64,000 nt of DNA from Arcticibacter eurypsychrophilus (GTDB lineage: Bacteria > Bacteroidota > Bacteroidia > Sphingobacteriales > Sphingobacteriaceae). Position 1 is the stretch's first letter. Every line of letters begins with the position of its first letter. The notes under the pieces are model-generated. The model was not told the origin of the DNA. It searched no databases and saw nothing but the letters and a program-made list of their open reading frames with translations. Of this stretch, positions 4,532 to 34,915 are shown piece by piece. The DNA lies in NCBI RefSeq assembly GCF_001730525.1, contig NZ_MDFN01000018.1:1-64000 (forward strand), in the 5' to 3' direction. The translations under genes were made by a program, and so were the position numbers.

Positions 4532-4574
4532 TGACCCGTATCATATTTATAAGTTGAAACATTAGTTAAATTTG
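4532..4574 (+). promoter_or_regulatory. FNR-type site plus -7 element of pflB
   Basis: TGACCCGTATCA (4532-4543, flanked as GTGAC...ATCAT) is followed by the perfect -7 element TAAATTTG at 4567-4574. The start-to-start distance is 35 bp, identical to the OFA transporter promoter, and is compatible with class II activation. No convincing -33 element is visible, as expected for an activator-dependent promoter. The predicted 5' leader is about 33 nt. Confidence 0.68.
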
Positions 4575-4611: not shown

Positions 4612-6846
4612 ATGAAAACAGATGTCACAGCAATTCCATTTGAACAAGGAGAATGGAACTCAACATTAAACGTATACAGTTTTGTTGTAAAAAACATTAC
4701 ACCGTATACCGGAAATTCTTCCTTTCTATCTGGTCCTTCTGCAAAAACCATCAATGTATGGAATGCAACTAAGGAAGCACTTGCAATTGAAAGAGCTAAC
4801 AATGGGTGCCTTGCAGTAGACACTGAAACAATTTCTAACATCACAGCCTTCAGGCCAGGATATATTAAAAAAGAAGATGAAGTAATTGTTGGTCTTCAAA
4901 CTGACGTATTACTTAAAAGATCATTGAAACCGTTTGGTGGTATCAAATTGGTAGAGTCTGCAGCAAGAGAACGCGGACTTGAAGTTTCAGACCGGATCAA
5001 GGATATATTTAAATATGCAAAGAATCATAATGAAGGTGTATTTAATGCTTACGATCCTGAGATTCGCGCATACCGTTCAAAACACGTATTAACAGGTTTA
5101 CCTGATAATTACGCACGTGGACGTATAATTGGTGACTTCCGCCGTCTGGCCTTATATGGTGCAGATGCCTTAATCGCTTTCAAAAAAGCCGATTTCAAAC
5201 AGGTTAGTGGAGAAATGACTGAACATAAAGTTCGCTTACGTGAAGAAATAAACTCTCAGATCGCTGCTTTAAAGGACATCGTTTTGATGGCTGCTGAATA
5301 CGGTTTGAATATTTCTAATGCTGCAACTACTGCGAAAGAAGCTATCCAATGGGTATATTTCGGTTACCTTGCTGCTGTTAAGGAACAAGATGGTGCTGCA
5401 ATGTCATTAGGTAATGTATCTTCATTCCTTGATATTTACTTAGAAAGAGATTTAAAAAGTGGCTTAATTACTGAAGAAGAAGCTCAGGAATTAGTAGATC
5501 AATTTGTGATGAAACTAAGATTAGTTCGTCATTTACGTCCTGCTTCTTATGATGAAATCTTCGGTGGAGATCCAACATGGGTTACAGAATCTTTAGGTGG
5601 TCAGTTAAACGACGGACGTACTAAGGTAACTAAGACTTCTTTCCGTTTCCTTCAAACCTTATACAACTTAGGATCATCTCCAGAACCAAATTTAACTATT
5701 CTATGGTCTGAAGAATTACCAGAAGGATTTAAGAGATTCTGTGCACAGGTGTCTATCGATACATCATCTATTCAATATGAAAATGATGACTTGATGCGCC
5801 CTAACAGAGGTTCTGATGATTATGGTATTGCATGTTGCGTATCATACCAGGAAATTGGTAAAGCAATTCAACACTTTGGAGCAAGAGCAAATCTTCCTAA
5901 GGCTTTATTAATCTCTTTGAATGCAGGTAGAGAGGAACATGAAGGAACTGTAATCGTTAAGGGAATTCCAGAATTACCAGAAGGACCTTTAGATTACGAT
6001 TTGGTATTGGATGTATTCAAGAGAACTTTAAGTGATCTTGCCCGTGTATATGCGAAAGCAATGTACATCATTCACTACATGCATGATAAATACTATTATG
6101 AAAGAGCTCAGATGTCATTAATTGATTCTGATCCACGTGTAGATATCGCTTATGGTGCTGCCGGTATTTCAATTATCGCCGATTCATTAGCTGCAATTAA
6201 ATATGCAAAGGTTACTCCAATCAGAAATGAAAAAGGCTTAACAGTTGATTTCAAGATTGAAGGAGAATATCCACAGTTTGGTAATGATGATGACCGTCCG
6301 GATACTATCGCACAGGAAATCACTCATTTCTTTATCAATGAATTGCGTAAGCATCAGACTTATAAAAACTCAACTCCTACACTTTCATTGTTAACCATTA
6401 CATCAAATGTAATGTACGGAACAAACACTGGTGCAACTCCTGATGGACGTAAATCTGGTGAACCATTTGCTCCAGGTGCAAATCCAATGCATGGACGTGA
6501 TAGCAGTGGTGCTATTGCATCGTTGAACTCTGTAGCTAAACTTAGATACACAGATGCTCAGGATGGTATTTCAAATACCTTCTCTATGATTCCAAAATCA
6601 TTAGGAGATACAAAAGAGGAACAAGTAACAAACTTGGTGAACACTATTGAAGGATACTTCAAACATATGGCCCATCACTTAAATGTGAATGTTTTGAACC
6701 GTGAAACTTTGATGGATGCTTATAATCACCCAGAAGAATATCCACAGTTAACCATTCGTGTTTCTGGATACGCTGTAAACTTTGTTCGTTTATCTCGTGC
6801 ACATCAATTAGAAGTTATTGCCCGTACATTCCACGAAAAAATGTAA
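4612..6846 (+). CDS. pflB: Formate C-acetyltransferase (pyruvate formate-lyase)
   Basis: A 744-residue glycyl radical enzyme that converts pyruvate and CoA to acetyl-CoA and formate. The adjacent catalytic cysteines are C408 and C409 ([10 protein letters not shown]), and the glycyl radical site is G719 in RVSGYAVNF, close to the C terminus as usual. The length matches the enzyme from other phyla (about 740-760). Its activase pflA follows in the same direction after a terminator-like hairpin, and an OFA-type carboxylate transporter precedes it. Codon use is plainer and more AT-rich than in its neighbours, consistent with high expression. The predicted operator upstream suggests induction when oxygen falls. 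Confidence 0.97.
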
Positions 6847-18552: not shown

Positions 18553-19767
18553 ATGAATGATGCAACCCTTTTACATGCTATTATAGAAAATGCCATTGAT
18601 GGTATTATTACGATTGACAAAAAAGGAATTGTTGAATCTATTAACCCATCTGCTTGCCTATTATTTGGATATACTCCACAAGAGGTAATAGGCCATAATA
18701 TATCCATGCTCATGGCGGAACCTGATCATTCCCGACATGATCAGTACCTACATCGTTACAATACAACAAAGGAACGTCACATCATTGGGATAGGCAGAGA
18801 GGTAAAGGGTTTGCGAAAAAATGGCACTCAGTTTCCCTTCCGCTTAGGAGTAAGCGAAGTGATTCTGTCAGACCGCACCATCTTTACCGGCTTTGTCAAC
18901 GATCTTAGCAGGGAAAAAGCTGCAGAGGAAAGGATTAAAAACCATGCGGCACAATTAGAAGAGCTGGTAGAAGAGCGTACTGCGTCATTGAGAAAGACCG
19001 TTCGGGCATTACAGGAAGCGAAGGAAGAAGTGAGTTTATCTTTGGAAAAAGAAAAGGAATTAAGCCAGCTTAAAAGCAGGTTTGTTTCGATGGCTTCACA
19101 TGAGTTCCGTACCCCATTGAGTTCGGTTCAACTGTCAGCATCTCTGATTGAGAAATATTCGCAGCAGGAAGATCCAACCAATATTACCAAGCATGTAAAT
19201 AAAATCAAAAATGCAGTAGGTAATCTAACCGCCATATTGAATGATTTTCTTTCCCTTGAAAAACTGGAAGCCGGAAGGGTTGAACCGACTTACACGCACT
19301 TTGATGTAGTTAAATTATCGGAAGAGATTACTGAAGAAATGCAAATGATTACCAAACAGAATCAAAATATCATTTATGAACATACGGGACTGACCAGTAT
19401 GGTTATCCTGGATCAGAATCTACTTAAGAATTGTATCATCAACCTAATTACCAATGCGATTAAATACTCCGGAGAGAACACCTTTATAGAATTTAATTCA
19501 GAAGTAACAGAAAAAGAATACATTTTAACCGTTAGAGATAATGGTATTGGCATCCCGGATGCAGATCAAAAACACTTGTTTCAACCATTTTTCCGTGCTC
19601 ATAATACAGGGAATATTCCTGGCACCGGATTAGGACTTAATATTGTAAGGCGCTATGCCGGTTTAATGAACGGCAAGGTTGAATTCGAAAGCATTATAAA
19701 TAAAGGAACTACATTTACTATATCTTTTTCTTCAAATAATGAAAAAAACATCCATTCTTATAATTGA
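18553..19767 (+). CDS. FixL-like soluble haem-PAS sensor histidine kinase
   Basis: A 404-residue kinase with no membrane segment. The PAS domain (about 5-120) closely resembles the oxygen-sensing PAS of rhizobial FixL. H62 in SRHDQYLHRY matches the haem ligand (H200 of Bradyrhizobium FixL) and R82 in HIIGIGREVKG matches R220, exactly 20 residues later in both. R68 and the FTGFVNDLS end are also conserved. A coiled coil (about 120-172) leads to the HisKA domain with H183 in SHEFRTPLS, then the HATPase domain (NLITNAIKYS, DNGIGIP, GTGLGLNIV). The 3' end overlaps the receiver-CRP gene by 29 bp, marking them as partners. Expected role: oxygen-dependent autophosphorylation. I have not assigned the name fixL because FixJ is absent. 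Confidence 0.9.
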   Translation: MNDATLLHAIIENAIDGIITIDKKGIVESINPSACLLFGYTPQEVIGHNISMLMAEPDHSRHDQYLHRYNTTKERHIIGIGREVKGLRKNGTQFPFRLGVSEVILSDRTIFTGFVNDLSREKAAEERIKNHAAQLEELVEERTASLRKTVRALQEAKEEVSLSLEKEKELSQLKSRFVSMASHEFRTPLSSVQLSASLIEKYSQQEDPTNITKHVNKIKNAVGNLTAILNDFLSLEKLEAGRVEPTYTHFDVVKLSEEITEEMQMITKQNQNIIYEHTGLTSMVILDQNLLKNCIINLITNAIKYSGENTFIEFNSEVTEKEYILTVRDNGIGIPDADQKHLFQPFFRAHNTGNIPGTGLGLNIVRRYAGLMNGKVEFESIINKGTTFTISFSSNNEKNIHSYN

Positions 19768-20791
19768 GGATAATGATGATATCCGTGAAAGCACTACGGA
19801 GATTTTAGAATTAGCAAACTATACTGTATTTCATGCAAACAATGGAAAAACCGGTGTGGAATTAGCTGTTAAACACCTGCCAGATATCATTTTATGTGAT
19901 ATTATGATGCCGGAGCTTGATGGTTACGGAGTATTGTTTATGCTAGGTAAAACACCCGAAACATCAACTATCCCTTTTATATTTTTAACAGCAAAAGCGG
20001 AACGAATTGACATGCGAAAAGGCATGGAAATGGGCGCCGACGACTATCTTACCAAACCATTCGATGACGTTGAATTACTGAACGCCATTGAAAGCCGGCT
20101 TAATAAAAGAGATAAACAAGAAGCTTTCTATAACAAGTCTTTAGAAAAACTGGACAATCTCGTTGGGCGGGGAGATGGTCTTGCAGAACTACAAAAGCTT
20201 GTAGCCGATCGTAAAATCAGAACAGTAAAGAAAAAACAAGTTATCTATTATGAAGGCGATAATCCTTCAGGTCTATATTTAATTTTAAATGGCAAGGTTA
20301 AGACCTTCAAATTAAGTAATGATGGCAGAGAGCTTCTCACATCCATTTATGGTCCGGATGAATATATTGGTGTCAATGCACTGCTCTCCAATGATGTATA
20401 TCATGAAACGTCAGAAGCGGTAGAGGATACTTCCATCTGCATGCTTCCTAAAGAAATGATCGATCAGCTGGTTAATCATTATCCACAGGTAGGACGCGCA
20501 TTTATAAAAATACTTTCGAACAATTTGAAAGAAAAGGAAGATCAGCTATTGCAGCTAGCATACCATTCCGTTAGAAAAAGAATGGCTCAGGTTCTTCTCC
20601 GTCTGGCAGGAAGCGACCCGGAAAAAGGCGTATTACGGATTTCCAGAGATGACCTTGCTGCTATGGCAGGAATGGCTACTGAAACAGTAAGCCGTACTTT
20701 AAGTGATTTTAAAGATGAAGGACTGATAGAAAAAAAGGGCAGCCAGATAATCATTTTAAACGCAACAAAACTAATAAATATGAAAAACTGA
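19739..20791 (+). CDS. Receiver-CRP/FNR fusion transcription regulator
   Basis: A 350-residue protein with three parts. Residues 1-120 are a receiver domain with acidic pocket E10/D11, phospho-acceptor D54 (LCDIMMPELDGY), T84 and K106. Residues about 155-255 are a cyclic-nucleotide-binding-like barrel. Residues about 270-345 are a Crp-type winged helix whose recognition helix TETVSRTLSDF carries E315, S318 and R319, the E-x-x-S-R pattern FNR uses to read TGA half-sites. Only two cysteines (C53, C234) are present, so the protein cannot carry an FNR-type Fe-S sensor; input should come from the upstream kinase. This looks like FixJ input joined directly to a FixK-type output. A TGA-N6-TCA site starts at its own stop codon and serves the next operon. 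Confidence 0.9.
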   Translation: MKKTSILIIEDNDDIRESTTEILELANYTVFHANNGKTGVELAVKHLPDIILCDIMMPELDGYGVLFMLGKTPETSTIPFIFLTAKAERIDMRKGMEMGADDYLTKPFDDVELLNAIESRLNKRDKQEAFYNKSLEKLDNLVGRGDGLAELQKLVADRKIRTVKKKQVIYYEGDNPSGLYLILNGKVKTFKLSNDGRELLTSIYGPDEYIGVNALLSNDVYHETSEAVEDTSICMLPKEMIDQLVNHYPQVGRAFIKILSNNLKEKEDQLLQLAYHSVRKRMAQVLLRLAGSDPEKGVLRISRDDLAAMAGMATETVSRTLSDFKDEGLIEKKGSQIIILNATKLINMKN

Positions 20792-20888: not shown

Positions 20889-21374
20889 ATGAGAGCCGTA
20901 GCATACAGTATAAGGTCCTTTGAAAAGGAACCACTGGCAAAAGCCAATCATAAGAAGCACGAAATTACATTAATATCAAATGAACTTGGTATTGAAACAG
21001 CCGAATATGCCACTGGGAAAGAGGTTGTTATAATCTCTGACAAGGATAAAGTTACATTGAGCGTCATAGAAAAACTTGCTGCTTTAGGAATAAAATTTAT
21101 TTCAAGCAGATCTTTAGCCCTTGAACATATAGACAAAAAAGCAGCTGCTTTACATGATATAAAACTTGCTTCGATATCTGTATCAAATGCAGATTCAGCG
21201 ACAATGGATGCGACATTATATCATTCTAAGATTGCTAATGACACTATACACAATCTGGATTATTGGCAGAACTCGAAATGCAATGGAGATAGTTGTACTA
21301 TTTCACAGGATTGCGAAAGCCATATTATTGCAGGTGAGTTTCAGAGCCGAATAGATAAAAACCCTGAAAGATGA
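20889..21374 (+). CDS. Lone N-terminal domain of D-lactate dehydrogenase type, with Cys tail
   Basis: A 161-residue protein from the ATG at 20889; an upstream non-ATG extension overlaps the promoter. Residues about 1-85 match the substrate-binding N-terminal half-domain of D-2-hydroxyacid dehydrogenases (MRAVAYSIRSFEKEP, ELGIETAEYATGKEVVIISD, LGIKFISSRSLALEHIDKKA). The NAD-binding Rossmann domain is absent, so it should not be a dehydrogenase. The tail carries SKCNGDSCTISQDCES, three closely spaced cysteines. Its stop overlaps the hemN start by 4 bp. Possible roles are a small-molecule sensor or a HemN partner; both are inference. Confidence 0.68.
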   Translation: MRAVAYSIRSFEKEPLAKANHKKHEITLISNELGIETAEYATGKEVVIISDKDKVTLSVIEKLAALGIKFISSRSLALEHIDKKAAALHDIKLASISVSNADSATMDATLYHSKIANDTIHNLDYWQNSKCNGDSCTISQDCESHIIAGEFQSRIDKNPER

Positions 21375-22738
21375 ACGTTGAAGAAGATTTAATCAATAAA
21401 TACCATGTTCCAGCACCACGTTATACCAGTTATCCAACTGTTCCTTATTGGAATGCGGAGTTTATGGGAAATGACGAATGGATCAAATCTGTCCAGTTTT
21501 CATTCGAAGAAAGTAACACACGCGATGGAATAAGTTTATACGTTCACTTACCTTTCTGCGAAAACTTGTGTACTTATTGTGGTTGCAACACCCGCATTAC
21601 CAAAAATCATACTGTTGAAGAACCTTATATTCAAACCTTACTTAAAGAATGGGATTTATATAAATCTCTATTTACGGAGAAGCCTGTAATTAAGGAAATT
21701 CATTTAGGTGGAGGTACCCCTACATTTTTCAGTCCGGACAATTTAGAGCTATTGATAAAGGGATTGTTTAAAGATGCCATTACACATCAGCAAGCAGAAT
21801 TTTCATTCGAAGGACACCCTGCTAACACCACAGAAGAACATCTTAAAACATTATACAAACTTGGATTCAGGAGAGTAAGCCTGGGGATTCAGGATTTTGA
21901 TCCACTGGTACAAGTTGTGATCAACCGCATGCAATCCTATGAAGACGTAAAATCAGTTACTGATTTTGCCAGGGCAATTGGTTATTTATCGGTTAATTAT
22001 GATTTAATTTATGGACTTCCAATTCAAACATTGGAAGGTTTGGAAAAGACAATCCATAAAACACTTTTATTAATGCCCGATAGGATTGCGTTTTATAGTT
22101 ACGCTCACGTGCCTTGGGTTAAACCCGGACAAAGGCGATACACAGAGAAAGATCTTCCTTCTGTTGAATTAAAGCAAAAGTTATATGAGCTAGGCCGGGA
22201 AATGCTGATCAATGCAGGATACCTGGAAATCGGCATGGATCATTTTGCATTGCCATCCGATTCCTTATATAAAGCTCAGATTGAAGGTCATTTGCACCGA
22301 AACTTTATGGGTTATACACATCAGTACACTCAACTGATGATTGGTCTGGGTGTGTCTTCTATCAGTGATACGCTTTACGCATTTGCTCAGAATGAGAAAA
22401 AAGTAGAAGATTACAGGGCCCGTGTTGAAGAAGGGAAAATACCTGTATTTAAAGGTCACCTGCTCACTAAAGAAGATTTGATTATGCGTCAGCATATTCA
22501 AAACATCATGTGTAATGGCAGTACCTCATGGCAGGATACTAACCTTCAATGTAAGGCACTCATGGACGGATTAAAGCGTCTTGAATCACTTGAAGAAGAC
22601 GGGTTACTAACATTAGAGCCCTTTAAGCTGGTTGTACTTCCTCAGGGGCAACGTTTCCTTCGTAATATATGTATGGCGCTGGATGCTAGACTGTGGGCTA
22701 ATCAGCCTAAAACTGTCATGTTTAGTATGGCAGGATAA
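21371..22738 (+). CDS. hemN: Oxygen-independent coproporphyrinogen III oxidase
   Basis: A 455-residue radical SAM enzyme converting coproporphyrinogen III to protoporphyrinogen IX without oxygen. The N terminus has APRYTSYPTVPYWN and the cluster motif CENLCTYCGCNT (C-x3-C-x2-C-x-C), the fourth cysteine being typical of true HemN rather than HemW. The length matches HemN (about 450). It is translationally coupled to the LDH-like small gene and is the natural haem-supply gene for a cbb3 oxidase made at low oxygen. It converges on the cco operon with only 3 bp between stops. Confidence 0.96.
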   Translation: MNVEEDLINKYHVPAPRYTSYPTVPYWNAEFMGNDEWIKSVQFSFEESNTRDGISLYVHLPFCENLCTYCGCNTRITKNHTVEEPYIQTLLKEWDLYKSLFTEKPVIKEIHLGGGTPTFFSPDNLELLIKGLFKDAITHQQAEFSFEGHPANTTEEHLKTLYKLGFRRVSLGIQDFDPLVQVVINRMQSYEDVKSVTDFARAIGYLSVNYDLIYGLPIQTLEGLEKTIHKTLLLMPDRIAFYSYAHVPWVKPGQRRYTEKDLPSVELKQKLYELGREMLINAGYLEIGMDHFALPSDSLYKAQIEGHLHRNFMGYTHQYTQLMIGLGVSSISDTLYAFAQNEKKVEDYRARVEEGKIPVFKGHLLTKEDLIMRQHIQNIMCNGSTSWQDTNLQCKALMDGLKRLESLEEDGLLTLEPFKLVVLPQGQRFLRNICMALDARLWANQPKTVMFSMAG

Positions 22739-26400: not shown

Positions 26401-28533
26401 TTAATTAGTTACTGCAGTTATATTCGCTTTTATATCGACACCTAAGCGTTGGAGGTAACTAATAACAGCAATAATCTCTTTATCGCTTTTGACTTTAATA
26501 TTATCCTTTACAAGATTAGCAGAAATTGCAGCAGCCTGTTTCTTCAGGTCGGCATTAGCTTCATTTTCGAAACCCTCTGGATATGGAACACCCAAAGACC
26601 GCATTGCATTGATCTTAGCGAAGGTTGTGGTAATATCCAGCTCTTGCTCAGTTAACCAAGGATATGGAGGCATGATACTTCCTGGAGACATTGTTGTTGG
26701 ATCAAACAGGTGATTAAAATGCCATGCATTGGAATACTTTCCTCCAACTCTATGCAAATCAGGACCTATACGTTTAGATCCCCAAAGGAATGGATGATCA
26801 TAAACATATTCACCAGCCTTGCTGTACTCCCCGTAGCGTTCAGTTTCTGAACGAAAAGGACGAACAGTTTGAGTATGACAGTTCACACATCCTTCGCGAA
26901 TGTAAATATCACGTCCCTGAAGTTCTAAAGGAGAGTAAGGCTTTACACTAGCGATTGTAGGCACATTTGAAGAAATCATAAATGTGGGCATCATCTCTAC
27001 CAATCCACCGATCAATATAGCTACAAGAGACAGCACAAGGAATTGCATTGGCCGGCGTTCAAGCTTACGGTGCCAACCCTTATCAGTACCTTCTGGAACA
27101 AAAGCAACAGTTAAAGGCATCGCTTCCGCCGGTTCATTGGCTAAAAGTTTACCTTGAGCCATGGTTTTCCAAAGATTCCAAGTCATCACAATTACTCCAG
27201 CCAGATATAACGTTCCTCCTACAGCACGCAAAACATGCATTGGAATAATCGCTAAAGTAGTTTCAAGAAAATTTGGATATTTCAACATCCCTTCGGGAGT
27301 AAATTCTTTCCACATCAGGCCTTGGGTAAAACCAGACCAATACATCGGAACAGCATAGAATAAAATCCCCAAGGTTCCTATCCAGAAATGGAAACTCGCC
27401 GCTTTTTTAGAATATAATGCAGTTTGATAAATCCGTGGAATTAACCAGTACAAGATCGCGAAGGTTAGGAAACCATTCCATCCCAAAGCCCCTACGTGCA
27501 CGTGTGCTACAATCCAATCCGTAAAGTGAGCAATACCATTAATTTGCTTTAAGGCTAGCATCGGACCTTCAAAAGTGGCCATACCATAGGCAGTTATGCC
27601 TACAACCATAAATTTAAGAATAGCATCATCACGCACTTTATCCCAGGCCCCCCTAAGAGTAAGAAGTCCGTTGATCATACCACCCCAACTTGGAGCAATC
27701 AACATAATGGAAAAGGCTACACCTAACGATTGTGCCCATGAAGGCAATGAGGTATATAATAAATGATGGGGACCAGCCCATATATAAATAAAGATCAGCG
27801 CCCAAAAATGGAGGATACTTAGTTTGTAAGAGTATATCGGGCGATTGGCCATTTTAGGAAGGAAATAATACATCATTCCTAAAAAAGGTGTAGTCAAGAA
27901 AAACGCAACTGCATTATGCCCGTACCACCATTGCACCAAAGCATCCTGTACTCCTGCGTAAACATAGTAGCTTTTAAAAAAGGAAATGGGCAACTCAAAT
28001 GAATTAACCAAATGGAGAACAGCAACAGTTACAAAGGTGGCTATGTAAAACCAAATGGCTACATACATGTGTCTTTCGCGCCGTTTAATGATGGTTCCAA
28101 ACATGTTGACCCCAAATATTACCCAGATCAAGGTGATCATAATATCTATAGGCCATTCCAGTTCAGCATACTCATGAGAAGTAGTTAATCCTAATGGTAA
28201 GGTAATTACCGCTGAAACGATAATAAATTGCCATCCCCAAAAATGTATATTACTCAGGAGATCACTAAACATTCGCGCTTTTAGAAGTCTTTGTAAGGAG
28301 TAGTAAACACCCATAAAAATCGCATTCCCCACAAATGCAAAAACCACGGCATTGGTATGCAATGGCCTTATACGCCCAAATGACGTGTATTGCGATGACA
28401 TATTCATAGCCGGCTGAAATAACTGTGAAGCGATTAGTAGCCCCACTGTCATTCCTATTAAACCCCAAACAATGGTAGCAATTGCAAAGTTCCGGACGGT
28501 TTTGTTGTCGTATTCAAATTTCTCAAGCTGCAT
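26401..28533 (-). CDS. ccoNO: Fused cbb3 oxidase subunits I and II (CcoN-CcoO)
   Basis: A 710-residue fusion. Residues about 1-480 are the 12-helix haem-copper catalytic subunit, with conserved histidines in RPLHTNAVVFAFVGN, WYGHNAVAFFLT, GPHHLLYTSLP and DWIVAHVHVGALGWNG. Residues about 500-710 are CcoO, with a membrane anchor and one haem c motif (GCVNCHTQT, near residue 550), and the downstream methionine in SPGSIMPPYPWL. Together these form the high-affinity terminal oxidase reducing oxygen at low tension. A non-ATG codon two codons upstream is also open; I use the ATG at 28533. The predicted regulator site is 85-96 bp upstream. Confidence 0.95.
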   Translation of the reverse strand: MQLEKFEYDNKTVRNFAIATIVWGLIGMTVGLLIASQLFQPAMNMSSQYTSFGRIRPLHTNAVVFAFVGNAIFMGVYYSLQRLLKARMFSDLLSNIHFWGWQFIIVSAVITLPLGLTTSHEYAELEWPIDIMITLIWVIFGVNMFGTIIKRRERHMYVAIWFYIATFVTVAVLHLVNSFELPISFFKSYYVYAGVQDALVQWWYGHNAVAFFLTTPFLGMMYYFLPKMANRPIYSYKLSILHFWALIFIYIWAGPHHLLYTSLPSWAQSLGVAFSIMLIAPSWGGMINGLLTLRGAWDKVRDDAILKFMVVGITAYGMATFEGPMLALKQINGIAHFTDWIVAHVHVGALGWNGFLTFAILYWLIPRIYQTALYSKKAASFHFWIGTLGILFYAVPMYWSGFTQGLMWKEFTPEGMLKYPNFLETTLAIIPMHVLRAVGGTLYLAGVIVMTWNLWKTMAQGKLLANEPAEAMPLTVAFVPEGTDKGWHRKLERRPMQFLVLSLVAILIGGLVEMMPTFMISSNVPTIASVKPYSPLELQGRDIYIREGCVNCHTQTVRPFRSETERYGEYSKAGEYVYDHPFLWGSKRIGPDLHRVGGKYSNAWHFNHLFDPTTMSPGSIMPPYPWLTEQELDITTTFAKINAMRSLGVPYPEGFENEANADLKKQAAAISANLVKDNIKVKSDKEIIAVISYLQRLGVDIKANITAVTN

Positions 28534-28564
28534 ATTCAAAAAATAGGTTATGTATTCCTAATGC

Positions 28565-28629
28565 CAAAAATAGTTTGTTATAACTTCTATTTGAATGATA
28601 TCTATTTCATTATAAAGTGACATAGGTCA
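28565..28629 (-). promoter_or_regulatory. FNR-type site plus -7 element of the ccoNO operon
   Basis: TGACATAGGTCA (28618-28629) is the core of a nearly perfect 28-bp palindrome, 28610-28637 (TTATAAAGTGAC and its complement). On the minus strand a perfect -7 element, TATTTTTG, occupies 28572-28565. The start-to-start distance is 57 bp, as at the LDH-like/hemN and ccoI promoters. The predicted leader is about 27 nt. The same palindrome could also serve doxX, but no TAnnTTTG element appears at either distance on that side. Confidence 0.68.
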
Positions 28630-29123: not shown

Positions 29124-29297
29124 TTACTCCTTTCCTTCTGGTTTCTCTTCTTCCGGTTTATCATCTTCAAAAAGCATACGTACGGCGGGAGTATATACGT
29201 CATCATGCTGACCATTTTTTAATGCCCAAAAAAAGGCAGCTAAAAAAAGGAGTGCCATAATTACGCTCGTGCCAATGAGAAAGTATAATATATTCAT
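29124..29297 (-). CDS. ccoS: cbb3-type oxidase assembly protein CcoS
   Basis: A 57-residue ORF on the minus strand. The protein begins MNILYFLIGTSVIMALLFLA, then a single helix ending AFFWALKNGQHDD and a short acidic tail, the standard CcoS layout. Its ATG overlaps the ccoI stop by 4 bp. CcoS is needed for haem and copper insertion into CcoN. Its placement after ccoI is the usual ccoIS order. Confidence 0.92.
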   Translation of the reverse strand: MNILYFLIGTSVIMALLFLAAFFWALKNGQHDDVYTPAVRMLFEDDKPEEEKPEGKE

Positions 29298-31693
29298 CGT
29301 AGTTTATATTTCTTAGCGAAATAACGGTTTGCTAAATTAGTCAATATGATAATAGTAATAGTACTCATAGGCATTAATATAGCTGCTGTGAGTGGGTAAA
29401 GCCTCCCCTGAACAGCAAAATAAACACCTATCAAATTATAAATGGTAGCTATAATAAAACTACATTTTATAATCAGCACTGCACTTCTTGCCTGACTAAT
29501 AAACTGAGGCATTTTACCCATAGCATTTCCTTTCAAAATAGCATCACTTCCAGGGGTGAAATTATTTATATTGTCGGTAACTGCTACACCAAGGTCACTC
29601 TGGCGGAGTGCCCCTGCATCGTTCAACCCGTCACCAAGCATCATCACCACATTTTGGTCTACCTGAAGTCTTTTTACATATTCCAGTTTATCCTGAGGAC
29701 TTTGATTAAAAAGCATAGGTACATATTCCGGAAATACTTCCATCAGATCCTTTTTTTCGTCTGAATGGTCCCCTGAAATCACATGCAACCTGTAATGCAC
29801 TTTTAATGATACAATAAGACCCTTTAAACTCGTCCGCCATTTTTGATTGATCTTGAAATAACCTTTATACTGGCCATCAATACGCACATGAACAGTTGAT
29901 GCATTACTAAAGGACAAGGATTCAGGAGATACGAATGAACGGCTTCCCATGAGCACTTCGTGAGGATCAAAAGAAGCAGAAATACCTTTACCTGGAATCT
30001 CAATATAGCTATCCGCCTTTAAATAATCTTTGCCATCCAACCATTTCGTAATCTGACGACTTAAAGGATGGGATGAATTCCTGGCGACAGAGGAAACCAG
30101 CGACTCCTCAAAAAGGGTCAACTCTCCAGAAAAGGTTAAATTATTAGTTTCAGGACAACTTATTGTACCCGTCTTATCAAACACAACAGTATCAATACGG
30201 GCCAGCTGTTCAACCACATCCGTATTTTTAAGATAAAAATCATTCCGATCAAATATCCCTAACACCGTAGACAAAGTTAAGGGAGTACTTAGCGCAAGCA
30301 CGCAAGGACAGGCCACAATAAGTACAGAAGAAAATGCATCCCAACCTTTACCTGTATCACCCATATACCACCAAAATCCTGCAGACACTAAAGCAATAGC
30401 AATCACTGCTACACTGAAATATTGCGCGATAGTATCATTAAAATTCTTGATTTTACTTTGATCACTTCTCTTGAAGGCTTCATTATTCCACAGTCTTGTC
30501 AGATAACTTTGCGAGACTGGTTTCACCACTTCCATTTCTATAGCCTCTCCTATTTGCCGGCCTCCTGCATAAATGATCTCACCAAGCACTTTTGATTGTG
30601 GTTGAGACTCTCCGGTAACGAAGCTAAAATCAAAACAGCCCTCCCCTTTCATCAAAATTGAATCGGCAGGTACAATCTCATTATTACGCACTAAAATCCT
30701 TGCACCAATCTCCAGATCATTAATCGGAACAGGAACCTCTACCCGCTCTTCATTTAAAAGAGTTACAGCCACTGGAAAATAGGATCGATAATCCCGATTA
30801 AAGGAAATATGGTTGTACGTCCGCTGTTTTACCCATCTTCCCATTAACAGTAAAAAAACAAGTCCAATTAAAGTATCAGAAAAACCAGGGCCTGCTCCAC
30901 TTATTATCTCATATGCGGAGCGGATAAATAACACCGCCACAATCAGAGCAAGGGGTGTATCCAGATTAATTACCTTATTTTTCAAACTTCCCCAAGCTGA
31001 AACAAAGAAATCGCGACTACAGTAAAAAGTAGCTACACTGGCAAAAGCCAAATTTAGCCAACCAAACAAGGTTTGAAACTGATGCTCTAAAGCGGATAGT
31101 CCCAAATACTCTGGAAAACTGAACAACATTACATTTCCCATGCAAAATCCAGAAACTGCGATCTTAAGAATCAAGTCACGATTTACTAAATTGCTTTTGT
31201 CCTTAACAATGTCCTGTAAACTGATGAGAGGTTCATATCCAATTGAGATAAGAATTTCAACCAGATTTTTCAAAGGAAGTTCATTATGATCAAAAGTAAT
31301 TTCTACCTGCTTCTTTAAAAAATCTACTCTTGAATGTGCTACAGCTGAGTTTATTTTATGAAGATGTTCAAGGAGCCAAAGACAAGAACTGCAATGGATT
31401 GCAGGAATATAAAAGGTAATAAGCGTTCTTTTTGTATCTGAATAATCAACCAGTTTAGAAAATATACCAGGATCATTTAAATATTCCAGATGTTGCTCAG
31501 TGTGACCTTTTTTCTCTCCTGGTGAGCTATTATAATTATAATAACTACATAAATTATTTTGTGCTAATATTTGATAAACACCCTTACATCCAGCACAGCA
31601 GAATAATTTATCATCAGCTATTAAAGGTTCTGTGACAATATTATCCCCACAATGAAAGCAGCATGTTTGGACCGATGTATCAGATGTTGTCAT
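29294..31693 (-). CDS. ccoI: Copper-transporting P1B-type ATPase CcoI (FixI)
   Basis: A 799-residue protein from the ATG at 31693. The N terminus is a Cys-rich metal-binding region (CCFHCGDN, LFCCAGCKGVYQ) plus an HMA-like domain with CSSCLWLLEHL. The P-type core has the CPC ion motif in VACPCVLALSTP, the phosphorylation motif DKTGT, the HP motif in NSSHPLSRQ, and GDGLNDAGAL. It exports Cu for cbb3 oxidase maturation. A longer reading frame opens with a TTG at 31714 that falls in the predicted -7 element, so it was not used. It is coupled to ccoS by a 4-bp overlap. Confidence 0.95.
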   Translation of the reverse strand: MTTSDTSVQTCCFHCGDNIVTEPLIADDKLFCCAGCKGVYQILAQNNLCSYYNYNSSPGEKKGHTEQHLEYLNDPGIFSKLVDYSDTKRTLITFYIPAIHCSSCLWLLEHLHKINSAVAHSRVDFLKKQVEITFDHNELPLKNLVEILISIGYEPLISLQDIVKDKSNLVNRDLILKIAVSGFCMGNVMLFSFPEYLGLSALEHQFQTLFGWLNLAFASVATFYCSRDFFVSAWGSLKNKVINLDTPLALIVAVLFIRSAYEIISGAGPGFSDTLIGLVFLLLMGRWVKQRTYNHISFNRDYRSYFPVAVTLLNEERVEVPVPINDLEIGARILVRNNEIVPADSILMKGEGCFDFSFVTGESQPQSKVLGEIIYAGGRQIGEAIEMEVVKPVSQSYLTRLWNNEAFKRSDQSKIKNFNDTIAQYFSVAVIAIALVSAGFWWYMGDTGKGWDAFSSVLIVACPCVLALSTPLTLSTVLGIFDRNDFYLKNTDVVEQLARIDTVVFDKTGTISCPETNNLTFSGELTLFEESLVSSVARNSSHPLSRQITKWLDGKDYLKADSYIEIPGKGISASFDPHEVLMGSRSFVSPESLSFSNASTVHVRIDGQYKGYFKINQKWRTSLKGLIVSLKVHYRLHVISGDHSDEKKDLMEVFPEYVPMLFNQSPQDKLEYVKRLQVDQNVVMMLGDGLNDAGALRQSDLGVAVTDNINNFTPGSDAILKGNAMGKMPQFISQARSAVLIIKCSFIIATIYNLIGVYFAVQGRLYPLTAAILMPMSTITIIILTNLANRYFAKKYKLR

Positions 31694-31711
31694 AATACTT
31701 CTATAAGAGAT

Positions 31712-31776
31712 CAAAGATGCAATATGCGTTTAAACATCCTAATGACAAATGTTAATATTAAATATGATCCTTATCA
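31712..31776 (-). promoter_or_regulatory. FNR-type site plus -7 element of ccoI
   Basis: On the minus strand TGATAAGGATCA (31776-31765) precedes CATCTTTG (31719-31712), one mismatch from TAnnTTTG. The start-to-start distance is 57 bp, identical to ccoNO. The predicted transcription start near 31707 gives a leader of about 14 nt before the ATG at 31693. Confidence 0.58.
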
Positions 31777-31819
31777 CTTATCCCCCTTCTACCACAGTGA
31801 TTACAATCAATCTTAAGAA

Positions 31820-31862
31820 TGACCATTATCACTAACATTATGAAGCTATTATACTTTATTTG
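31820..31862 (+). promoter_or_regulatory. FNR-type site plus -7 element of the ECF sigma gene
   Basis: TGACCATTATCA (31820-31831) lies 35 bp, start to start, ahead of TTTATTTG (31855-31862), one mismatch from TAnnTTTG. The spacing equals that at pflB and the OFA transporter. It is separate from the ccoI site 44 bp to the left, so each divergent gene has its own site. Confidence 0.55.
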
Positions 31863-32864: not shown

Positions 32865-32924
32865 AGCTATCATGGCTTAAATTTTGTCTACTTATAAATA
32901 GATAAAATTTAAGCCATGATAGCT
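32858..32924 (-). terminator. Strong terminator hairpin for the 599-residue gene
   Basis: Perfect 21-bp arms at 32865-32885 and 32904-32924 enclose an 18-nt loop. On the minus strand the hairpin is followed by a run of seven T (complement of 32858-32864), the layout of a rho-independent terminator. It lies 127 bp past the stop of the leftward gene at 33051-34850. The right arm contains the ATG of a possible rightward small ORF. Confidence 0.78.
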
Positions 32925-33050
32925 AAATATTTTAATGAAAAATCCTATAAAACGAAGCTAAGCGATACAGAAAAAAGAAGATCTGATCTGATTATTTACA
33001 TCTTTCTGGTAGCACTGGTGTTGATCATTTCAGTAGTTACCTCGATATAA
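32916..33050 (+). CDS. Possible 44-residue single-helix membrane protein
   Basis: A short ORF encoding a basic, hydrophilic N terminus (MIAKYFNEKSYKTKLSDTEK) and one C-terminal hydrophobic helix (LIIYIFLVALVLIISVV). Its stop abuts the stop of the convergent gene exactly, and the composition looks protein-like. Against it: the start codon lies inside the arm of a terminator hairpin acting on the other strand, and no clear promoter is visible. A small oxidase-associated subunit is one possibility, without direct support. Confidence 0.35.
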   Translation: MIAKYFNEKSYKTKLSDTEKRRSDLIIYIFLVALVLIISVVTSI

Positions 33051-34850
33051 TTAAACTTCGCTATATTCCTGAATCGCTATCAATCTTAATTGAGCTTCAA
33101 TCTCATGAAGTTCATTTGTAAATTTATTTAAATATTGTTCAGTCTGGTTGGTGATACTACCTGCCAGTTTTTTATAATATTCGATACCAATCAACAATTG
33201 CTCTTTAAATTTCTCTAGTTGTTTGATCTTTTTAGAGTCTAAAGTTTTTAGATGATTGGATATATCATTCTTAAGATAATCAACATATAAGTTTAATTCG
33301 TTTACAAAAAAAGAGGATCTGGTTACACCCTGTAGTAAGTTCATTTTACCGTAGATATGTTTAACCATTTCATCTAAAGAAAATGTTCTGGAGAAATAAG
33401 CCAGGTTAGGACCAGGACATATTGCAACCGCTGCATCTTCTTTCGGATTAAGAATTCCATCTTTGATGTAGGTTGCAGCAGTCAGACCTTCGCATAGACA
33501 TAACTTTTCAGTAATCTTTGTATATTGAGTTTGATAATCTTCAGCCCCAAGACCGAGCGTTTCCAATTGTTTAAGCTTCAGATTTTGGTATTCCCTTGAA
33601 GCAAGACATATAGGTTTGTCCGTAAATTCAGTATTTGACACCAAATACTTCTTTTTGCAAGGACTTCCCGGGCGACCTTTTTCTATTCTTGCAACTCGTA
33701 GTTTCTCAGCACTACTCAAACGATAGTTATTGAAAGGAACTCCTAATGGAGATGATCCACTGATATAAAAATCTGCCGCAGTAGATTTCACTAAATTTTG
33801 AAGCGTTTCATCATCAACATTAGTGGCTTCAGGAACTAATAAAAAAGGGCTTCCCCAACCAGTGCCATCTACCTGATAATGATCTAATATGAAATTATTC
33901 TCTTCAACAGTACCAATACCACCTTGTACAGTGATTCGCATTGCAGGTGGGTTACTGATAGTAATTCCTTTTGTAAGCAACGCATTCTCGTAAATCACAT
34001 AAATGTCGGCGATCATGTCCTGACGCTTCGTTTTAAATTCCTCCAGAATAGGGCCAATTAAATATCCTTCTGTAGCAAAAGCATGACCTCCGCAATTAAG
34101 TCCGGATTCCACTCTGAATTCAGATACCCAGATTCCTTTTTTAGCGAGAAACTTAGCTTGTATGAAAGCAGAACGAAAATCACTCACTTTTAAAATTACT
34201 TTCTTTTTAAGCTTTTCCTGTTGGTCAGGGAAAAAGTCAGCAAAACTCTCCAAATAGCCATACAAACGAGGATTCATTCCTGCTGACAGCACTATTGATG
34301 AATCAAGATCACTCATTGCAAAACCTCTTAGACCAGCAAGAGCATCTGAATTATCATCTCCTGTAGTTTCGCCGTTTGGCCTAAAGTTAGTTTTATCAAT
34401 TTTAGCCATGATGTTTACATCAATAGCTCCCTTATTCATTTCCTGGCGTAATGCAACACCGATACGATCCTTTTCAACTTGATCTGCTTCTAGAAACATC
34501 TGATTGTATTTTATTTTCAGGAAAGAAGTTTCAGGTAACAGTTGAAAATAACGTGTCAGATCAGATTCAGCAGTAAACAACTGAGATTTCAATTGTTCAA
34601 ACTGTTCGTTGAGCTTGCGGTTAACCATGTTTAAATAATCACAAATACGTTTTGCTCTATGATCTTCATCTTTCATATCAATAGCAGCGTACTCTTCCTG
34701 ATTTTTTTTAGCATAGAACTTCCTCATTCGTTCTATCAACATATCGTCAACGATGGAAATCACAGATGAAATCCCGTAACGCCCTACTTTTAATGGTGTA
34801 TCTACTGTAAACCCCAGCCCCAATACAGGTATATGAAATGTATGACTCAT
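33051..34850 (-). CDS. Conserved-looking protein of unknown function (599 residues)
   Basis: I do not recognise this family. The protein is soluble, with a helical N-terminal region (about 30-130) and a central region of barrel-like character containing GLNCGGHAFATEG (C253, H256) and RITVQGGIGTVEENN. These recall flavin TIM barrels such as nitronate monooxygenase, but the match is too weak to name. Further cysteines at C398 (GSPCKKK), C415 (KPICLAS), C451 and C453 (EKLCLCEGL) and C478 (AICPGPN) could bind iron-sulfur or zinc. The last 100 residues are a coiled-coil-like helix. The ATG at 34850 is preferred to the adjoining TTG. It has an FNR-type site upstream and a strong terminator downstream, so it is a single-gene unit probably tied to low oxygen. 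Confidence 0.75.
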   Translation of the reverse strand: MSHTFHIPVLGLGFTVDTPLKVGRYGISSVISIVDDMLIERMRKFYAKKNQEEYAAIDMKDEDHRAKRICDYLNMVNRKLNEQFEQLKSQLFTAESDLTRYFQLLPETSFLKIKYNQMFLEADQVEKDRIGVALRQEMNKGAIDVNIMAKIDKTNFRPNGETTGDDNSDALAGLRGFAMSDLDSSIVLSAGMNPRLYGYLESFADFFPDQQEKLKKKVILKVSDFRSAFIQAKFLAKKGIWVSEFRVESGLNCGGHAFATEGYLIGPILEEFKTKRQDMIADIYVIYENALLTKGITISNPPAMRITVQGGIGTVEENNFILDHYQVDGTGWGSPFLLVPEATNVDDETLQNLVKSTAADFYISGSSPLGVPFNNYRLSSAEKLRVARIEKGRPGSPCKKKYLVSNTEFTDKPICLASREYQNLKLKQLETLGLGAEDYQTQYTKITEKLCLCEGLTAATYIKDGILNPKEDAAVAICPGPNLAYFSRTFSLDEMVKHIYGKMNLLQGVTRSSFFVNELNLYVDYLKNDISNHLKTLDSKKIKQLEKFKEQLLIGIEYYKKLAGSITNQTEQYLNKFTNELHEIEAQLRLIAIQEYSEV

Positions 34851-34872
34851 CAATTTGGTATAAAATGTTTTA

Positions 34873-34915
34873 CAAAAGACAAGATATTTTATTTATTAAA
34901 ACATGACTTAGATCA
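34873..34915 (-). promoter_or_regulatory. FNR-type site upstream of the 599-residue gene
   Basis: On the minus strand TGATCTAAGTCA (34915-34904) lies 35 bp, start to start, from GTCTTTTG (34880-34873). That element keeps the TTTG but misses the leading TA, so the promoter is weaker evidence than at pflB. The implied leader is about 18 nt. No -7 element sits at the equivalent distances toward glgX on the other strand. Confidence 0.48.

Follow-up and report, generated by a model that had tools for sequence, protein, structure and literature searches.

FabX (HP0773) of H. pylori is an acyl-ACP dehydrogenase/isomerase with FMN and a [4Fe-4S] cluster, in which the cluster is held by C300, C304, C308, and C320, H182 is the catalytic residue, and the FMN is contacted by N99, E175, G220-G221, Q240-T243, and F339-G341 (PMC8626469). 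Homologues of FabX have been reported mostly from anaerobes (PMC8626469), and Neisseria depends on one of them, UfaA (NGO1024), to make unsaturated fatty acids anaerobically, as cited in PMC11300592.

Here, we describe a 599-residue protein encoded in the window (the whole stretch of 64,000 nucleotides of Arcticibacter eurypsychrophilus DNA that was analysed); a literature search found no paper on any named homologue of it. Our preferred reading, to which we give a probability of roughly 0.5, is that of an FMN TIM-barrel oxidoreductase of the nitronate monooxygenase (NMO) superfamily, with FabX as its nearest fold, a second metal site, CRP/FNR-type control at low oxygen, and FabX-like chemistry. 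An unnamed gene, present in about one third of the sampled Bacteroidota genomes and three quarters of those of one order, would thereby gain a fold, likely cofactors, and a condition under which to test it.

A solitary gene and its family

The minus-strand open reading frame (ORF) spans positions 33051-34853 and opens with TTG-ATG. Since the homologues begin at the Met encoded at 34850, we take that ATG as the start, the TTG one codon upstream being unneeded, which yields 599 residues and bears out the sequence-only reading from which this work started. The gene is solitary, with the ccoI/ccoNO cluster on one side and three plus-strand sugar genes on the other.

33051..34850, minus strand: coding sequence of the 599-residue, predicted FabX-like/NMO-superfamily protein (ATG at 34850, stop at 33051-33053; homologue starts agree)
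34080..34109, minus strand: E248-S-G-L-N-C253-G-G-H256-A, the putative catalytic-His (GGH) motif of the NMO superfamily, kept in 122/122 homologues save L251 (120/122) and mapping to FabX E175/H182 (PMC8626469)
33909..33926, minus strand: Q309-G-G-I-G-T314, the putative FMN-phosphate GG motif, from the homologue alignment
33405..33659, minus strand: C-terminal subdomain with C398, C415, C451, and C453 (candidate Fe-S ligands) and C478-P-G-P-N482 (candidate FMN-contact motif), assigned from invariance and as the positional counterpart of FabX residues 267-363
34904..34915, minus strand: TGATCTAAGTCA, a palindrome of the CRP/FNR-superfamily type (TGAYN4RTCA), centred 59.5 nt before the ATG

The residues singled out in the sequence-only reading, namely the GGH stretch with C253 and H256, Q309GGIGT314, C398, C415, C451, C453, and C478, are correctly placed, and its statement that no family is recognisable proved right: neither single-sequence nor profile searches of Pfam, NCBIfam, and PDB sequences returned a match, and no housekeeping or other known family was clearly hit. 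PF03060 (NMO) did not appear in the lists of families at E ≤ 1 for the window protein and 63 members, and NCBIfam scans of the 63 members gave no match to TIGR02814 (PfaD).

The family is a genuine one of Bacteroidota, mostly single-copy and usually with one gene per genome. Of the genomes sampled, 118/151 in the order, 121/395 in the class (a count that includes a few weak chance matches), and 112/296 in the phylum carry it; outside Bacteroidota, the search was a scan for close relatives. No plasmid-borne copies were found. One genome keeps an intact copy and also has a second, broken one with in-frame stops (G435:C1:4371179-4372931). Weak matches were seen to ORFs of 565-572 residues in two genomes (G298 and G327), of which the G298 match was rejected as a family member, the ORFs listed at that locus resembling other proteins.

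Predicted fold and flavin site

AlphaFold2, supplied with a 63-member alignment, returned a confident model (pLDDT 88.9, pTM 0.90) of a TIM barrel with eight strands, interrupted after strand 1 by a helical insertion and extended by helices at its C-terminus; loop 254-257, in the active site, is its least confident part. The closest solved fold is that of H. pylori FabX (7e1q), which ranked first in Foldseek (E 2.3e-8) and also in VIA (Z 21.7 over 328 residues at 3.1 Å), followed by PfaD, the enoyl reductases of DfnA and MlnA, FabK, and nitronate monooxygenases, with IMPDH behind at Z 15. The leading solved matches are all FMN enzymes of the FabX/PfaD/FabK/NMO group, in line with the flavin barrel that had been guessed from a few motifs, and structure prediction and remote-homology search, proposed at the outset as a check, thus delivered a barrel with FabX as its best solved match. 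The FMN TIM-barrel fold and the FMN site are strongly predicted by the model, and the catalytic GGH histidine, the GG motif, and the G(T/S)xF motif typical of the NMO superfamily follow one another in order. Profile–profile comparison with NMO/FabK sets was suggestive (P about 0.012-0.017) and aligned GGH, GG(I)G(T), and GSPF in the right register with NMO proteins; since one unrelated control scored equally, we do not take this result as proof. The C-terminal part, when folded alone, reached a pTM of 0.49 and gave no meaningful match, and is therefore left without an assigned fold.

Conservation was assessed across 122 homologues sharing 43-100% identity. E248, C253, H256, C398, C415, C451, C453, C478, and CPGPN are invariant in all 122, as is G310-G311. 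QGGIGT is kept save T314 (118/122; I313 was left out of the tabulation), and the G331-F336 stretch is invariant save G333 (120/122) and position 334, which is S or T. C70 falls outside the invariant columns. Mapped by motif order onto the published FabX residues, the counterparts in FabX order are N146, E248, GGH256, QGG311 (G310-G311), GWGSPF336 (G331-S334), and CPGPN482.

The protein resembles FabX in its predicted FMN barrel, its E...GGH motif, and its four cysteines placed after barrel strand 8 and ahead of the C-terminal FMN-contact motif, and it may work like FabX. It differs in being only 17% identical over the aligned part, in its length (599 vs 363 residues), in the insertion of about 105 residues after strand 1 and the extra helical C-terminus, in its cysteine spacing (CX16CX35CXC vs CX3CX3CX11C), and in having a conserved low-oxygen control site and no known fatty-acid role. 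By the test of ligand spacing it is no FabX, because that spacing differs. FabK and the nitronate monooxygenases (PF03060) have the same barrel and the GGH, GG, and GT/GS-F motifs, whereas the 599-residue protein has no PF03060 match, and none of 26 barrel sequences compared has a comparable cysteine set. PfaD and the trans-acting enoyl reductases (TIGR02814) form the second-best fold group and have a large size in common with our protein; PfaD also carries a GGIGT motif. In contrast to PfaD, our protein has no TIGR02814 match, and no polyketide/PUFA synthase genes were recognised near its gene. A true PfaD was sought in 80 genomes, with no match above the curated cut-off.

Invariant cysteines and a putative metal site

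Four invariant cysteines (398, 415, 451, and 453) lie after strand 8 (361-364) and before the candidate FMN-contact motif near the C-terminus, the interval in which FabX holds its [4Fe-4S] cluster. In our own reading, CPGPN would be the counterpart of the C-terminal AGxS motif of NMO proteins; taken as the FMN-contact motif, it leaves these four cysteines before it and makes C478, as part of that motif, a less likely ligand. The earlier suggestion that C398, C415, C451, C453, and C478 could hold a cluster thus stands for the first four and is weakened for C478, while all five, together with C253, are the six cysteines invariant in 122/122 homologues. We lean slightly towards an Fe-S cluster in the protein.

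A conserved control site

The FNR-type site claimed upstream of the gene is present at 34904-34915, and, among 104 non-redundant homologues, 57 have TGAYN4RTCA in their upstream region (shuffles: mean 1.9, at most 5). The spacer is almost only 4 nt, other spacings giving 0-5 occurrences among the 104 upstream regions, and the flanks are A-rich and T-rich, so that a longer palindrome results. The window holds 15 matches where 5.7 are expected (0/100 shuffles reach 15); the motif precedes pflB, ccoNO, and ccoI too, and several further matches fall within genes. In other genomes, 54 of 298 neighbouring genes carry the motif, a frequency expected if some of them belong to the same regulon. The relevant neighbours in the window are as follows.

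4532..4543, plus strand: TGAYN4RTCA palindrome 68 nt before the pyruvate formate-lyase (PFL) gene (4612-6846; identity read from sequence)
18553..19767, plus strand: PAS histidine kinase with a FixL-like match
19739..20791, plus strand: receiver-CRP regulator with an FNR/FixK-like output domain, candidate regulator
21371..22738, plus strand: HemN, oxygen-independent coproporphyrinogen III oxidase (TIGR00538)
26401..28539, minus strand: CcoNO fusion (cbb3 oxidase), with a palindrome at 28618-28629, about 78 nt before the start
29294..31714, minus strand: CcoI-type P-type ATPase, with an orthologue in locus L003 and palindromes upstream at 31765, 31798, and 31820

The product of the receiver-CRP gene (19739-20791) is a candidate regulator of the 599-residue protein gene, which may be induced at low oxygen. 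Upstream of the ccoI-type gene, three TGAYN4RTCA palindromes are packed into 67 bp (31765-31831).

Genomic context and co-occurrence

At least one low-oxygen or nitrogen-oxide gene lies within the fetched stretch in 32 of 71 loci. These neighbours encode cbb3, HemN, NrdJ (class II ribonucleotide reductase), NadA/NadB, NirK, NosZ/NosD, Ric, and Rrf2; representatives were confirmed with NCBIfam, except for a NorB-like cluster that received no NCBIfam name and was read by eye. At several loci, a hemN, nadA, nrdJ, NorC-like, or Rrf2 gene directly adjoins the family gene on the same strand. A simple motif scan of the 71 loci found no convincing fatty-acid genes within six genes.

A cluster of NorBC-like genes, nadA/nadB, tryptophanase/tyrosine phenol-lyase, and the family gene recurs with varying members (L066:857-8517, L100, L103, and L104). 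A membrane protein of 405-417 residues that by eye resembles heme-copper oxidase subunit I and has no NCBIfam name lies beside the family gene and nos genes in two loci (L112:9923-11164 and L146). In a single case (L150), a gene that looks by eye like an acyl-CoA thioesterase lies 90 bp upstream of the family gene on the same strand.

Co-occurrence was counted, ignoring relatedness, in a panel of 80 genomes, 40 with and 40 without the family gene. True hemN is present in 35/40 genomes with the gene and 11/40 without it (p 7e-8, relatedness uncorrected). Co-occurrence with ccoNO and the receiver-CRP gene had been proposed as a check on the low-oxygen assignment, and the outcome depends on rank: within the order, ccoN is found in 20/20 genomes with the family gene vs 4/20 without it, and at class level the link is missing (11/20 vs 9/20); the link with receiver-CRP is weaker within the order (20/20 vs 12/20) and lacks significance in the class. 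nosZ predicts the family weakly, with 5/20 vs 0/20 in the order and no significant difference in the class, and desaturase genes showed no relation, and no anticorrelation, with family presence across the 80 genomes. The conserved site, common to pflB, ccoNO, and ccoI, and the tracking of hemN and, in the order, ccoN support the initial guess of low-oxygen control.

Proposed function and alternatives

In the mechanism that we propose, low oxygen would lead a CRP/FNR-type activator to switch on the gene together with those of cbb3 oxidase, HemN, and PFL and, elsewhere, with denitrification genes. A thioester-bound acyl chain would enter the barrel, as in FabX, H256 would take a proton, and the FMN a hydride; the electrons would then pass through a second metal site beside the barrel, for which C398/C415/C451/C453 would be the ligands and an Fe-S cluster the likeliest occupant, and reach some acceptor that is not oxygen. 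This would yield an unsaturated acyl thioester and substitute, in the absence of oxygen, for O2-dependent desaturases, as UfaA does in Neisseria. The likeness to UfaA, as that protein is cited in PMC11300592, is one of proposed low-oxygen role.

The acyl-thioester substrate is a tentative suggestion by analogy, drawn from the fold and from the argument that two oxygen-independent enzymes, HemN and NrdJ, act as substitutes and that a desaturase serves another oxygen-dependent step; the lack of a fatty-acid neighbour in the motif scan and the indifference of desaturases to family presence speak against it, and a role in unsaturated fatty-acid synthesis is doubtful. A flavoenzyme of the same fold could instead act on another substrate, either as an NAD(P)H-linked reductase, like FabK or the NADH:quinone reductase PA1024, or as a nitro/nitronate-type enzyme handling products of nitrogen-oxide respiration. 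FabK, PA1024, and NMO score little below FabX by fold (Z 18-20 vs 21.7), and NirK, NorBC-like proteins, NosZ, Rrf2, and Ric are encoded nearby; yet FabX tops both fold searches and alone has cysteine ligands in the same interval, while denitrification genes are missing from the fetched surroundings of many members, that of the window included, and nosZ predicts the family poorly. We hold such a substrate to be possible, on the unlikely side.

That the cysteines bind zinc or are structural, the barrel serving the low-oxygen response in a non-redox or regulatory capacity, would fit their un-FabX-like spacing, a sequence from which metal identity cannot be told, and the poorly modelled active-site loop, but all 122 homologues keep the flavin and GGH motifs unchanged and the leading fold matches are flavoenzymes, which makes it improbable. 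Least probable by far is a TIM barrel unrelated to the NMO superfamily that matches FabX through the common barrel alone: sequence-level matches are indeed lacking, and a control equalled the profile–profile score, but the order of matches is family-specific (FabX, PfaD, FabK, and NMO ahead of IMPDH) and the GGH, GG(I)G(T), and GSPF motifs stand in NMO register.

Taken with the FabX-like reading, the protein may be part of how Bacteroidota manage without oxygen. It would be a bolder and rather unlikely step to see in it a separate, phylum-wide Bacteroidota enzyme family for the oxygen-free synthesis of unsaturated acyl chains, with an FMN barrel, its own type of metal cluster, and CRP/FNR-type control, relieving the desaturases. 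Should the acyl reading be true, it would explain the membrane fluidity of many aerobic-looking Bacteroidota once oxygen runs out; should it be false, the family would still add one more, as yet unassigned, redox enzyme to the conserved low-oxygen/denitrification gene set of the phylum.

The downstream end of the gene

The 21-bp terminator ascribed to the gene was recovered as a perfect stem with a T tail.

32865..32924, minus strand: probable intrinsic terminator, an inverted repeat with 30-nt arms and a perfect 21-bp stem (AGCTATCATGGCTTAAATTTT) followed by a T run in the direction of the gene

It lies 126 nt beyond the stop codon, past a 44-residue ORF on the opposite strand, and was not flagged by a simple terminator scanner. 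Its sequence is common to the family gene's locus in the sister species and absent from loci L002 and L004. The 44-residue ORF (MIAKYFNEKSYKTKLSDTEKRRSDLIIYIFLVALVLIISVVTSI; 32916-33050, plus strand), overlooked before, encodes a probable membrane helix; it is convergent with the 599-residue protein gene, begins inside the terminator stem, and is conserved in position in L005 and L002.
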